From Poseidonibacter ostreae (lineage in GTDB: Bacteria > Campylobacterota > Campylobacteria > Campylobacterales > Arcobacteraceae): DNA of 52,188 bases. The stretch's first letter is position 1. Every line of letters begins with the position of its first letter. The position numbers and the translations under genes were made by a program. Below, in pieces: positions 20,886 through 26,526 of the stretch. Under the pieces are notes generated by a model. It was not told the origin of the DNA, ran no database searches, and saw only the letters and a list, made by a program, of their open reading frames with translations. The stretch lies in the NCBI RefSeq assembly GCF_009208075.1, contig NZ_WFKJ01000017.1:1-52188 (forward strand), read 5' to 3'.

Positions 20886-21254
20886 ATGAAAAAGAAGTTA
20901 AATGTACTAGGTGGTACGCTAGAACCTTGTAGTGTAAATCCACTAACTGGATTCTATCGAGATGGCTGTTGTTTTTCTGGAAAAGATAATGACGGTGTTC
21001 ATGCTGTTTGTATTTACGCAACTAAAGAGTTTTTAGAATATTCTAAAAAAGCGGGTAATGATCTTTCAACTCCAGTACCTGAATATAATTTCCCAGGTGT
21101 TAAACCAGGAGAAAGTTGGTGTTTAGGTGGATATAGTTTTGTAAAAGCACATCATGAGGGTAAAGCACCTAAGATATTTATACATTCTACACATGAACGT
21201 ATTTTAGAACTCATTGATTTAGAAACATTAAAATCTTACGCTGTTGATTTATAA
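20886..21254 (+). CDS. DUF2237 family protein
   Basis: 122 residues from ATG at 20886 with AAGGAAA upstream. The sequence NVLGGTLEPCSVNPLTGFYR, then GCC and WCLGGYSF near 79, matches the DUF2237 family found in many bacteria; no function is known. It has several Cys residues. It starts 64 bases after arsI and may share its transcript, so a link to arsenic or thiol stress is possible (inference). Confidence 0.82.
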   Translation: MKKKLNVLGGTLEPCSVNPLTGFYRDGCCFSGKDNDGVHAVCIYATKEFLEYSKKAGNDLSTPVPEYNFPGVKPGESWCLGGYSFVKAHHEGKAPKIFIHSTHERILELIDLETLKSYAVDL

Positions 21255-21270
21255 GATAAGAAGTAAGAAA

Positions 21271-21457
21271 TTAGTTAATATAATCTTTTACTTCTAGTGT
21301 TTTTCTTTCTAATTCATCTAATTCATTAATTCTAAAGTAATTGATTTATCCATAAATCACTGTTTTCTGTTTGAGTATCTTTTGAATAACTTCCCAAAAG
21401 CCCTAAATATATAGAGATTATTGCAGTTTGTAGCAGATGGTATTTAACTGTTATCTT
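21271..21457 (-). pseudogene. Decayed gene fragment at the edge of the McrBC island
   Basis: On the minus strand the translation reads KITVKYHLLQTAIISIYLG and then continues to SDLWIN before hitting a stop. Joined by a two-base frameshift near 21340, the next frame carries on as INELDELERKTLEVKDYIN to a stop at 21271. Together they look like the last 55-60 residues of a larger protein with no start codon. I cannot name the family. The rest of the 309-base gap is AT-rich with no other recognisable feature. Confidence 0.45.
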
Positions 21458-21563
21458 TTAGATGAAATAATTAGGTATACTGTCCTCACAATTTTAAATA
21501 ACCTACTTATATGCTAACTTCTACTATCATTAATAATCACAGAATATTTAAAGAAGTATATAA

Positions 21564-22688
21564 ATGAATTATCTTTATGAAAATCAAAATATCCCAGAGA
21601 ATTTAGAAATCCATATTAAGGACAATAAATCTTTATACCCTTACTTTGAAATGAATTTTGATGGAATCAAGCCTAAAAATAGATGTGGGTTTTTATCAAT
21701 TGAAAATAAGAACTATTTTATTATTCCAAAAATATCAAATGAAAATGAAGATAATCTAAATATATTTATCTATATGATTCTAAAAGCTTATGATATAAAA
21801 ATATCAAATAAAGATCTTGCTAATTTTGACCAAACAAAATTTAAATATATGGAGTTTTTCATTAGGTATTTTTCAGATATTTTATTTAATGAACTTAAAA
21901 GAGGTATTCATAAAACCTATATAACAAAACAAGAAAACCTAAAAGTTCTAAAAGGTAAATATTTACTAGAAAAGAACTTCCAAAACTTCTATCATATGAA
22001 TATCTACTGTGAATTTGATGAGTTTTCAATTGACAATGAATTAAATAGATTTTTTCTTTATGCAATAAAAATATTTAAAAGATATAGTACTTATTCAAAC
22101 TTACATAAATGTGAAGCTGTATTTGATGAAGTTGAATACTCTCACATAGATATTAATAGATTAAGAATCAAATTTGATAGATTAAATCATAGATTTGAAA
22201 AACCTTTTGAAATAGCATTAAAGATACTTAAAAAACTTTCACCACTTGTTAATAATTCTGATACAAAAAGTTTTGCTTTTCTTTTTGATATGAGTGAAGT
22301 TTTTGAGAAATTTATAGGAAATATTTATAAAGAAATAGATTCAAATACATCCTTACAATGCGAAAAGAATTATGGAAATTTAAAACTAAAACCAGATATT
22401 AAAACTTCAAATCAAATTATTGATACAAAATATAAACTTGTAAAAAACAAAAAAGATTTAAAAACTCATGATAAATATCAAATGTTTACTTATGGAATAA
22501 ACTTTGGGATTAGAAATACAATGCTTTTATATCCTAAACATTTATTATATGTTAATGAGGATTTAAAACTGGGAATTGATGAAAATTTAGTTAGGTTGAA
22601 AATGAAAAGCATTGACTTAAAATGTGATGATATTGGATATGAAAACTATATAAAAGAGGTAAATACTAGGATTAGGGAAATTAAATGA
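21564..22688 (+). CDS. mcrC: McrC-like subunit of a type IV (McrBC) restriction system
   Basis: 374 residues. The C-terminal half carries the PD-(D/E)XK nuclease signature LKPDIKTSNQIIDTKYK (Asp278, Asp287, Lys289). Upstream blocks such as FDMSEVFEKFIGNIY and the region with LKVLKGK and IDNELNRF follow the McrC family layout. McrC is the endonuclease partner of the McrB GTPase and cuts DNA containing modified cytosine. The 4-base ATGA overlap with the next gene shows translational coupling. McrC normally follows McrB; here it is first, which is unusual. Confidence 0.9.
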   Translation: MNYLYENQNIPENLEIHIKDNKSLYPYFEMNFDGIKPKNRCGFLSIENKNYFIIPKISNENEDNLNIFIYMILKAYDIKISNKDLANFDQTKFKYMEFFIRYFSDILFNELKRGIHKTYITKQENLKVLKGKYLLEKNFQNFYHMNIYCEFDEFSIDNELNRFFLYAIKIFKRYSTYSNLHKCEAVFDEVEYSHIDINRLRIKFDRLNHRFEKPFEIALKILKKLSPLVNNSDTKSFAFLFDMSEVFEKFIGNIYKEIDSNTSLQCEKNYGNLKLKPDIKTSNQIIDTKYKLVKNKKDLKTHDKYQMFTYGINFGIRNTMLLYPKHLLYVNEDLKLGIDENLVRLKMKSIDLKCDDIGYENYIKEVNTRIREIK

Positions 22689-23677
22689 AATTAACAGATA
22701 ATCAATTTTATAAAGATATAAAAGACTTACTAAACAATGCCAGAAGCAAGGTATATCAAACTATAAATATAACTATGACAAAGACTTATTTTGAAGTAGG
22801 TAAAAGAATTGTAGAAGAAGAACAAGGCGGAGAAAAAAGAGCACAATATGGAAAAGCTTTAATACAAAACTTATCTAAAGAGCTTATAAAAGATTTTGGA
22901 AAAGGTTTCTCCGAGCAAAATTTAAAAAATATGAGACAATTTTATTTAGTCTATGAAAAAAGACAGACAGCGTCTAGCGAATTTAAATTAAGCTGGTCAC
23001 ACTATATATTTTTAACAAGAATTGAAAATATTGATGAAAGAAACTTTTATGAAATTGAAGCACTTGAAGATGCATGGAGTTTAAGAGAATTAAAAAGACA
23101 ATTTAATAGTGGACTTTTTGAAAGATTAGCTTTAAGTAAAGACAAGTCAAAAGTAAAAGAGTTATCTTCAAAAGGTCAAGCTATTGAAAAAATTGATGAT
23201 ATGATAAAAGATCCATATATTTTAGAGTTTGTTGGGCTTCCTGAAGTTTCAAGTTATACTGAAAGTGAACTAGAGCAAAAATTAATCGATAAGTTAGAGA
23301 ATTTTTTATTAGAACTAGGAAAAGGTTTTACTTTTGTATCAAGGCAAAAAAGATTAACAATTGATGAAAAACACTTTAGAGTTGATTTAGTTTTTTACAA
23401 TAGATTTTTAAAATCTTTTGTAATAATTGATTTAAAAATTGGTGAACTAAAACATCAAGATATAGGTCAAATGATGATGTATGTAAATTATTTTGATAGA
23501 TATGAAAAAACTGAAGATGAAAATCCAACAGTTGGAATTATTCTTTGCAAAGATAAAAGCAAAACTTTGGTTGAATTAACTTTACCAAAAGACAATAATC
23601 AAATCTACGCAAGTAAATATTTAACAGTATTACCAGATAAAGAAGAGTTTAAAAAGTTATTGGAAGAAAGGGAATAG
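22685..23677 (+). CDS. DUF1016 (YhcG-type) PD-(D/E)XK nuclease
   Basis: 330 residues. The N-terminal domain (about 5-150) matches the DUF1016 helical region with YFEVGKRIVEEEQGGEKRAQYG and SWSHYIFLTRI. The C-terminal domain (about 170-330) is the PDDEXK nuclease with FRVDLVFY (Asp234) and IIDLKIGELKHQDIGQM (Asp249, Lys251). YhcG proteins are often found as accessory genes in type I restriction and other defence loci. Here it is sandwiched between mcrC (4-base overlap) and mcrB (no gap), so all three genes are one operon. Its contribution to the restriction system is inferred. Confidence 0.92.
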   Translation: MKLTDNQFYKDIKDLLNNARSKVYQTINITMTKTYFEVGKRIVEEEQGGEKRAQYGKALIQNLSKELIKDFGKGFSEQNLKNMRQFYLVYEKRQTASSEFKLSWSHYIFLTRIENIDERNFYEIEALEDAWSLRELKRQFNSGLFERLALSKDKSKVKELSSKGQAIEKIDDMIKDPYILEFVGLPEVSSYTESELEQKLIDKLENFLLELGKGFTFVSRQKRLTIDEKHFRVDLVFYNRFLKSFVIIDLKIGELKHQDIGQMMMYVNYFDRYEKTEDENPTVGIILCKDKSKTLVELTLPKDNNQIYASKYLTVLPDKEEFKKLLEERE

Positions 23678-25144
23678 ATGGAATATCAATCTAAAACTGA
23701 ACAATATAAAAAATTCTTAGAAAGTTCAAAAACTCAAAAAGGAAATAACTTTAAAGATAAAACAATTAAAGATCAAATTAAATTTTTATCTGAAGACATA
23801 CCTAAAAAATTGAACTCCTTTTATAATATAGATACATATCAAAATTTATTTTTAGAAAAGAATCTACTTGTTATAAAAAATTTAAAAAGTCTTTTTTCTA
23901 AAAAAGAAGGAATGGATGAACTCTATAAATGGGATCAAGAAGATTTAGGTAAAGGAGGTGCAAGTTCTTCATTATTTCAATATATGAAGTTCTTAGAAGA
24001 CATTGAAACTAAAAAAAATATTTATAAAGAAAGTGAAAAAATGAATATAAAAAACATAATACTTTACGGAGCACCAGGAGTTGGGAAAACTCATAATTAT
24101 AAAAAGCTAATTTCTCTAATTGAACAAGGTCAATCACAAAAAGATATTTTTGATTCGATTAAAAAAAATGAATTGTTTAGTAATGAAAATGAAACTTTTA
24201 AACAAGTAGAAGAAGAAAAAAGAGTAGAGTTTATTACTTTTCATCAGAGCTTTGGATATGAAGATTTTATTGAAGGCTTCAGACCACAAAAAAATGGAAA
24301 TATTGAAATAGAAGATGGTATTTTCAAGAATATTGCTTATAAAGCATCTTCAAAAATTATATTAAAAGACAATATTTTAATAAATAGGGTTATTTCAACA
24401 GATAGAACAACTTATACGATAAGTGAAATTAGCAATGAGATGATTTATATTAAAAAAGAAAATGATACCAGAATAGTCCCAATTCCTAAAAAACTTATAA
24501 TTGAATTACTTGAAAATATCAAGAATCAATCTATTTCTGTTGATGACATTAAAAATAGAAATTTAGGAAATTTATCTCTTTCTTTTGATAAATATATGTA
24601 TGGTTACAACTCAATACTTTATAACATTTGTAAATCAATTATTGATGAAATTCAATATATTGAACAAAAAAACTTCTATCTTGTTATCGATGAAATAAAC
24701 AGAGGAAATATCTCAAAAATCTTTGGTGAACTAATCACACTTATTGAAGAATCAAAAAGAGATGATTATGAAGTAACTCTTCCTTATTCCAAACAGAAGT
24801 TTTCAGTTCCATCAAACCTTTATATAATTGGGACAATGAATACAACAGATAAATCTATTGCTTTAATAGATGTTGCACTTAGAAGAAGATTTACATTTAT
24901 TAAAATGCAGCCAAATTCAAATTTAGTATTGCCAAGTTTTAAAACTACATTTGAAAAACTAAATAAAAAAATAAAAAATGATTTAGGAGAAGAGTATCAA
25001 ATAGGTCATAGCTACTTTATGAATATAGATGCATCTGAGCTAGAATTTGTATTAGAATATAAAATTAAACCTCTTTTAGAAGAGTATTATTATGGAGATG
25101 AGGAATTAATTGAAGCTCTAAAAATAATAAATTTAGAAAGTTAA
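23678..25144 (+). CDS. mcrB: McrB-like AAA+ GTPase
   Basis: 488 residues. The AAA+ core has Walker A GAPGVGKT at 131-138, Walker B YLVIDEINRG at about 334-343, and the McrB-specific signature MNTTD at 387-391 followed by SIALIDVALRRRF with the arginine finger. McrB uses GTP to translocate and activate McrC. Residues 1-120 do not match the E. coli modified-base-binding fold I know, and they presumably supply target recognition. Residues about 225-320 form an extra insert between Walker A and B. The start is immediately after the DUF1016 stop. Confidence 0.92.
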   Translation: MEYQSKTEQYKKFLESSKTQKGNNFKDKTIKDQIKFLSEDIPKKLNSFYNIDTYQNLFLEKNLLVIKNLKSLFSKKEGMDELYKWDQEDLGKGGASSSLFQYMKFLEDIETKKNIYKESEKMNIKNIILYGAPGVGKTHNYKKLISLIEQGQSQKDIFDSIKKNELFSNENETFKQVEEEKRVEFITFHQSFGYEDFIEGFRPQKNGNIEIEDGIFKNIAYKASSKIILKDNILINRVISTDRTTYTISEISNEMIYIKKENDTRIVPIPKKLIIELLENIKNQSISVDDIKNRNLGNLSLSFDKYMYGYNSILYNICKSIIDEIQYIEQKNFYLVIDEINRGNISKIFGELITLIEESKRDDYEVTLPYSKQKFSVPSNLYIIGTMNTTDKSIALIDVALRRRFTFIKMQPNSNLVLPSFKTTFEKLNKKIKNDLGEEYQIGHSYFMNIDASELEFVLEYKIKPLLEEYYYGDEELIEALKIINLES

Positions 25145-25194
25145 TTAAGAAACTAGTATTAACTCAGAATAGTAAATTTTTTCAAAGAGATTGC

Positions 25195-25293
25195 AAGAAC
25201 AAGTTAAAGGCCAGAGGAAAACTTGTGCCACTGGCACAAGGCAAACTGTGCGCGTATTTCAATTCCGACGATAACGCCGAAATTTAGCAAAAG
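25195..25293. repeat. GC-rich palindromic segment, candidate dispersed repeat
   Basis: This stretch is clearly richer in G and C than its surroundings. It contains a palindrome CTTGTGCCACTGGCACAAG with an 8-bp perfect stem, then a run with GCGCG, CCGACG and CGCCG. It fills the gap between the mcrB stop and the end of the YhiN-type gene. A spurious open frame crosses it, but the sequence looks like a structured or repetitive element. No direct copy is present elsewhere in this window, so repeat status is a suggestion based on composition. Confidence 0.35.
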
Positions 25294-26526
25294 TTACGAT
25301 TTTCTCACTAATGATTTTCCAGCTAGATAACCGCTCGCCCAAGCAAACTGCAGATTAAATCCACCCCTATTTCCTACAATATCTAAAACCTCTCCTGCAA
25401 AGTATAAGCCTTTGCATTTCTTACTTTCATAAGTTCTATTATCAACCTCATCTGTACGAACTCCACCACCACTTGCTTCCGCATGTCCGAAGCCTTGTGT
25501 ATCTGTGATTTTTAGCTTCCATTGGTTTAATTGATATGAGATTGCTTTGATTTGTTTTGCATTTACTTGTTCTGCTTTTGTATCTTCTTGTATTTTACAT
25601 ATTTCTAGTAAAACTGGAGCTATTTTATTTGATATCATTCCAGTTAGAATATCTAGTGCTTTTTGTTTTGGTGCTGTTTTAAACAAACTTTGTATTTGGT
25701 CGCTCAAATCATTTCTATGTAATTTTGGAAAAAAATTAATAGCTATTTTTACATCTTGATAAAGACTTAGATTATATGCTGCTACTTGTGAGATATCTAG
25801 TATTGCAAAACCTGATACTCCATACTTAGTAAACAATACATCTCCAAATATCTCTTGTTCTAATTGTCCATTTATAAAAAGACTTACATTGCACTCTTTT
25901 TTAACACCTTGCATTCTACTATGATATGTTACATCTGTATGAAGTCCTACAAGTGATGGATATGTTGGATTGAAGCTGTGTTCAAATTTTGAAGCAAAAT
26001 CTAATCCTGATTCATTTGCATTTAGTTGTGGTGCTGCTCCTAAACCATTTGAAATAAGTACTTTATCATACTGAGTGTATTCTTTATCTGCAGTTTTAAT
26101 TGAAAACTTTTCATTCTCTTTATTGATGTCTTTTATCAAAGAGTCTAAATAGACTTTAACGCCTAAAGAATCAAGTGTAAGCTCAAGTAGTCTTGTAACT
26201 GATTTAGCTTCATTTGATAATGGATATACTTTATTTGTCTCTTTTATATCAAGTAATAAACCAATTGATTTACAGAACTTCTCAAAAGCTTTAAAATCAA
26301 ACTCTTTTAAAGCATAAGTTGTAAAATCTGGGTTTTCACCTAAATAGTTTTTGGGAGTTACATGTGAATTAGAGATATTACATCTTCCATTTCCACTAGC
26401 TAGTATCTTTTTTCCAATACCTTTGTTTGCATCAAATAAATCAACTTGAATATTTTTGTTTAATCTCTTAGCAGTTATTGCGGCTATTATACCAGCAGCC
26501 CCTGCTCCTATTATTGCTATTTTCAA
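25294..26526 (-). CDS. YhiN/HI0933-family FAD-dependent oxidoreductase
   Basis: 410 residues from TTG at 26526, preferred because AAGG lies just upstream and the FAD-binding motif begins at once; an in-frame ATG at 26556 would overlap the cupin gene by 22 bases. N-terminal Rossmann motif IIGAGAAGIIAAI, then ASGNGRCNISN near residue 53, and the C-terminal GLYFAGEVLDIVGNRGGFNLQFAWASGY block are diagnostic of the HI0933 (YhiN) family. The reaction is not established for the family. It is downstream of the cupin gene in the same transcript. Confidence 0.88.
   Translation of the reverse strand: MKIAIIGAGAAGIIAAITAKRLNKNIQVDLFDANKGIGKKILASGNGRCNISNSHVTPKNYLGENPDFTTYALKEFDFKAFEKFCKSIGLLLDIKETNKVYPLSNEAKSVTRLLELTLDSLGVKVYLDSLIKDINKENEKFSIKTADKEYTQYDKVLISNGLGAAPQLNANESGLDFASKFEHSFNPTYPSLVGLHTDVTYHSRMQGVKKECNVSLFINGQLEQEIFGDVLFTKYGVSGFAILDISQVAAYNLSLYQDVKIAINFFPKLHRNDLSDQIQSLFKTAPKQKALDILTGMISNKIAPVLLEICKIQEDTKAEQVNAKQIKAISYQLNQWKLKITDTQGFGHAEASGGGVRTDEVDNRTYESKKCKGLYFAGEVLDIVGNRGGFNLQFAWASGYLAGKSLVRKS

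Follow-up and report, generated by a model that had tools for sequence, protein, structure and literature searches.

A probably accessory DUF1016/YhcG nuclease gene within an mcrC-first McrBC operon of Poseidonibacter ostreae

The window analysed here, a stretch of 52,188 nucleotides from the 2.96 Mb genome assembly of Poseidonibacter ostreae, holds an operon of three genes, mcrC, DUF1016 and mcrB, all on the + strand (Table 1). An ORF and coordinate check agreed to the base with the original prediction of three co-directional genes, in which a 4-base ATGA overlap (22685-22688) provides both the mcrC stop and the DUF1016 start, and the mcrB ATG directly follows the DUF1016 stop with a gap of zero. 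Comparison with congeners placed the operon in a variable slot, with a DUF2237-like gene on one side and a gene for an oxidoreductase on the other. The congeners carry other genes in this slot, including short toxin-antitoxin-like pairs, and in locus L205 just ~40 bases separate the two slot neighbours.

Table 1. Coordinates and notable residues of the operon and its parts in the P. ostreae window
Feature	Position	Strand	Details
mcrC, McrBC family (PF10117), 374 aa	21564..22688	+	PD at residues 277-278, DTK at 287-289
DUF1016/YhcG nuclease gene, 330 aa	22685..23677	+	DUF1016_N at residues 11-147; YhcG_C PD-(D/E)XK at residues 172-326
mcrB, AAA+ GTPase, 488 aa	23678..25144	+	Walker A GAPGVGKT 131-138; DEINRG 338-343; NTTD 388-391
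McrB N-terminal region, residues 1-120	23678..24040	+	no Pfam match; hypervariable across loci
Insert of McrB, located between the Walker A and B regions, ~residues 225-330	24350..24667	+	variable; missing in L034 and L046
DUF1016 3' end (TTGGAAGAAAGGGAATAG), purine-rich, ribosome-binding-site-like, directly 5' of the mcrB ATG	23660..23677	+	
Variable slot around the operon	21261..25298	+	homology to congeners ends at 21254-21265 and restarts at 25255-25310

The predicted presence of two different PD-(D/E)XK nucleases and one McrB GTPase was confirmed by motifs and family matches. McrC covered the whole PF10117 profile of Pfam (E 2.9e-50) and matched solved McrC in a PDB search (6ut5_G, E 5e-36), and its PD277-278 and D287-x-K289 residues are kept as PD and DxK in 14 of 14 aligned relatives, with DCK replacing DTK in some. 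McrB matched AAA_5 of Pfam (E 6e-15) and the solved McrB GTPases (6ut3, E 2e-51); we take the 6ut3-6ut8 structures to be Thermococcus gammatolerans McrBC. Walker A and Walker B (DEINRG) are present, together with a signature of the four-residue NxxD type (MNTTD). With these McrB motifs, and with a McrBC/DUF2357-type fold and PD-(D/E)XK residues in McrC, the pair belongs to the McrBC family, and all motifs of the three-gene operon look intact. DUF1016 as a replacement for a dead McrC nuclease was ruled out by the intact McrC motif.

The alignment of loci showed a conserved GTPase core in McrB and an N-terminus and inter-Walker insert that differ by locus. A McrBC census (PMC11090510) describes inserts in McrB GTPase domains as probable carriers of specificity, and the P. 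ostreae insert follows this known pattern. The N-terminal region (residues 1-120) is likewise the probable target-recognition part. The original prediction took both regions to suggest a target other than that of E. coli McrBC; they do vary between loci, and a role as target-recognition modules would be consistent with the McrB inserts of the census (PMC11090510).

The operon resembles the McrBC type IV systems of E. coli K-12 and T. gammatolerans (6ut3-6ut8) in combining an NxxD McrB GTPase with a PD-(D/E)XK McrC, encoded by adjacent genes in one direction. It differs from them in the placement of mcrC before mcrB, in an unassigned McrB N-terminus and insert, and in the DUF1016 gene lying between the two. 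As in the CoCoNuT branch of McrBC covered by the census, a GTPase operon of McrBC type is joined here by one more nuclease gene. However, an NxD GTPase signature defines the CoCoNuT branch (PMC11090510), whereas the window McrB carries N-T-T-D (NxxD); in addition, the McrC nuclease motif is intact, and no HEPN or RNA-binding domain was matched in Pfam. Long coiled-coil fusions are a further CoCoNuT trait, and the window McrB is just 488 aa in length.

The product of the middle gene matched DUF1016_N (E 1.8e-43) and YhcG_C (E 6e-58) in Pfam and corresponds to PADLOC candidate PDC-S02. Residues E197, D234, D249-L-K251, Q262 and Y266 (QxxxY) are invariant or nearly so among 43 homologues, D249 being replaced by E in one of the 43, and a YhcG motif E-D-E-x-K has been proposed from sequence (PMC1189080). 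Both domains and the E-D-(D/E)xK catalytic residues are shared with stand-alone DUF1016/YhcG proteins (PF06250; PDC-S02), and the window copy is distinguished by its location inside an mcrBC operon. Judging from these residues, the protein is probably an active PD-(D/E)XK nuclease. Strong purifying selection was shown by dN/dS values of 0.06-0.21 among close relatives, of which the order of size alone counts because dS is near saturation. The mean pLDDT was 66 for a first structural model and 74 (pTM 0.58) for a second, a moderate-quality prediction in which the N-terminal part would be helical and the C-terminal part mixed alpha/beta. No related solved structure was found in the PDB search, no function is assigned to DUF1016/YhcG in the open literature searched, and DUF1016 is absent from the main text of the McrBC census (PMC11090510).

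The distribution of these genes was counted with one genome per species, in assemblies that are partly fragmented. McrC was found in 37 of 104 Arcobacteraceae genomes, and the McrBC subtype of the window in 22 Arcobacteraceae loci, 21 of them with both genes readable; mcrC precedes mcrB in all 21. Together with 11 more mcrC-first loci in other Campylobacterota families, this order holds in 32 of 32 loci of the subtype with both genes readable across Campylobacterota. The mcrB-mcrC order taken as usual in the original prediction is therefore not that of this subtype, for which mcrC-first is the rule, and the inverted gene order as an oddity was ruled out. Many mcrC-first loci lie between the hydrogenase maturation genes hypD and hypE, a junction (L035-L046, L188, L192-L196) that is a recurrent site for mcrC-mcrB across Campylobacterota and also takes optional DUF1016, MazG-like, RhuM-Fic and Bro-N genes. 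The optional neighbours of these McrBC loci, which also include ORF6N, PemK and ParE beside Bro-N and RhuM-Fic, fit a cassette that gathers accessory genes. At L187:3302-6057, mcrC-mcrB is flanked by genes resembling phage-tail-like parts.

DUF1016 accompanies mcrC-first McrBC at 7 of the 21 Arcobacteraceae loci and is missing from 14. It lies between mcrC and mcrB in the window, L034, L049 and L052, after mcrB in L040 and L048, and before mcrC in L044, where DUF1016 carries an in-frame stop and mcrBC is intact. The search for the same mcrC-DUF1016-mcrB order proposed in the original prediction thus found it in L034, L049 and L052, and chance placement in a single genome, which the prediction had raised against itself, does not describe an order seen in four genomes of four genera with at least three insertions. 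Overall, YhcG_C gave ~70 matches in 40 of 104 Arcobacteraceae genomes. The close DUF1016 group of the window has 10 members in the family, of which 7 adjoin mcrC-first McrBC. In the other 3 this neighbour is missing: L086 and L089 occupy the hypD/hypE junction with no McrBC there, L093 stands by itself, and the genomes of all three lack mcrC-first McrBC. Stand-alone copies are 75-83% identical to the window DUF1016. Adjacency to mcrC-first McrBC, 7 of 10 in this clade versus 0 of ~60 other Arcobacteraceae DUF1016 genes, is strongly skewed (Fisher p 1e-7, for a clade grouping made after the data were seen), and among the 22-23 canonical McrC loci none has the clade as a neighbour (p 0.004). A hand estimate, taking ~0.7 DUF1016 genes and ~2500 genes in each genome, puts the number of chance adjacencies in 21 loci far below one.

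The other Arcobacteraceae DUF1016 genes lie in gene sets for sugar modification, glycolysis (gap/pgk), molybdate or type I restriction, with gene identities assigned partly by eye. Most DUF1016 genes of the family are not beside type I systems, so the association of YhcG with such systems assumed in the original prediction does not hold in this family. Where DUF1016 does occur in type I operons, the likeness to the window is that restriction genes surround a YhcG gene, as also described for Methanosarcina acetivorans (PMC1189080), but the genes concerned belong to other DUF1016 clades. Two identical tandem DUF1016 genes 1271 bases apart were seen at L082:477-2788, and in several genera DUF1016 lies within molybdate-transport-like gene sets (L074, L108, L191).

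Outside Arcobacteraceae, no DUF1016-McrC pairing occurred among the McrC matches listed from 397 genomes of the class, and none of 18 McrC loci in 149 genomes of a Bacteroidota-type class (that of a Pedobacter relative) had DUF1016 nearby. In a large genome collection, the 79 nearest relatives of DUF1016 in other records include none next to McrBC; the one near relative that adjoins it, L106, is the already-counted locus of genome G100. In many phyla, relatives of 52-85% identity were found singly, with metabolic genes as neighbours. A viral contig (L208:2586-7465) carries an integrase, DUF1016, mcrB and mcrC in one direction, with another McrBC type, a distant DUF1016 and a 190-base gap, and a search for its relatives returned L208 alone. 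This is a loose pairing, not operon-like, and none that is operon-like was found outside Arcobacteraceae in the searched sets.

Phylogenetic comparison indicated that mcrC, DUF1016 and mcrB were not inherited jointly, as the McrC and DUF1016 trees conflict and 14 of 21 loci are without DUF1016. On the McrC tree, DUF1016 presence needs at least five changes. The window McrC groups with L051 and L053 (77% identical), both without DUF1016, and the window DUF1016 groups with L044 and L086. Tree tests rejected a single clade for the four mid-junction McrC proteins (p 5e-59) and for the four mid-junction DUF1016 proteins (p 0.018), as well as the pairing of the window McrC with that of L044 (p 0.0004). 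The simplest account of these sequences is therefore that DUF1016 entered the mcrC/mcrB junction independently at least three times, in the window, in L034 with L049, and in L052; losses or recombination could replace some of the arrivals, and simple shared descent does not fit. The inserted unit can be read from L052 and its unoccupied sister locus L047, which share their chromosomal location: in L052 DUF1016 follows an mcrC end nearly identical to that of L047, its ATG takes the exact position of the mcrB ATG in L047, and the DUF1016 end (GGAAGAGGGGGAATGATG) is followed by mcrB. DNA homology of the window DUF1016 with L086, L089 and L093 is likewise confined to the gene limits (22683/5-23665/7), and the inserted unit is therefore the DUF1016 gene itself, apparently placed so that its neighbours can stay translated. 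No common flanking sequence was seen by eye at the different DUF1016 sites, and a preference of DUF1016 for the interior of gene clusters was rejected (46% versus 39% for neighbouring genes, p 0.46).

The reading we consider rather probable is that an mcrC-first restriction operon of the McrBC class (type IV) acquired a DUF1016/YhcG nuclease gene that is accessory to it and inherited separately. By analogy with the solved McrBC family, McrB would form a GTPase ring whose exchangeable N-terminal and inserted regions recognise incoming, probably modified DNA, and McrC would cut the DNA recognised by McrB. DUF1016 is in translational register, starting at the mcrC end and offering at its own end a ribosome-binding-like stretch for mcrB, so that its co-production with McrBC is probable. 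Its most likely role would be that of an additional defence nuclease acting independently, possibly against the same DNA, and McrBC would not depend on it. This accessory role is preferred because DUF1016 is optional, occupies three positions, can be broken beside an intact mcrBC and occurs alone elsewhere. It may understate a partnership, since three insertions in one junction exceed what is expected of a random passenger; direct cooperation with McrBC is plausible, and the repeated insertion is a hint of it rather than proof.

An integrated three-part system, in which DUF1016 works as a partner of McrBC, for example as a second nuclease processing the DNA that McrBC has cut or translocated, or by binding to the complex, is the main alternative but a doubtful one. 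It is kept alive by the close association between a single DUF1016 clade and a single McrBC subtype (7 of 10 versus 0 of ~60, p 1e-7; 0 of 22-23 canonical loci, p 0.004) and by the three or more independent insertions into the same mcrC/mcrB junction. Against it stand the 14 of 21 loci without DUF1016, the two copies after mcrB and one before mcrC, the in-frame stop in L044 beside intact mcrBC, the presence of L086, L089 and L093 in genomes without mcrC-first McrBC, and the lack of pairing in other Campylobacterota families among the McrC matches listed. The same observations divide the original claim of DUF1016 as a component of the system: a recurrent, intact nuclease gene in mid-operon stands, and the optional, broken and stand-alone copies speak against membership. 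That McrBC in this lineage repeatedly recruits DUF1016 as a functional second nuclease is likewise a doubtful reading.

The specific tie of clade to subtype and the strong purifying selection make it unlikely that DUF1016 is a mobile passenger settling among exchangeable defence-island genes with no defence role beside McrBC, even though in many phyla its relatives (52-85% identity) occur singly next to metabolic genes and copies lie between gap/pgk genes, hyp genes and sugar-modification genes. Gene-exact insertion limits and repeated hits on the same junction would also suit a homing-type gene, which would spread when its nuclease cleaves the empty junction and the gene is copied into it; this is very improbable given the lack of a common flanking sequence seen at different sites, the occurrence of DUF1016 in unrelated sites, and its presence in clusters no more often than its neighbours (46% versus 39%, p 0.46).

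If recruitment by McrBC were true, the YhcG family, otherwise uncharacterised, would gain its first partner and its first function. This family of nucleases is widespread, and natural McrBC loci with and without the gene make its contribution directly testable; L047 (without) and L052 (with DUF1016) offer a natural comparison at the same junction and chromosomal site. The locus is further an example of exchangeable accessory genes entering and leaving restriction operons with the core genes kept in translational register. Elsewhere in the P. ostreae genome, a second McrBC of another subtype has a DUF2779 gene directly upstream (L055, G000:C130), and an open frame of 858 aa contains a match to C5-cytosine methyltransferase (L232, G000:C70:28506-29486) that could bear on McrBC self-avoidance.
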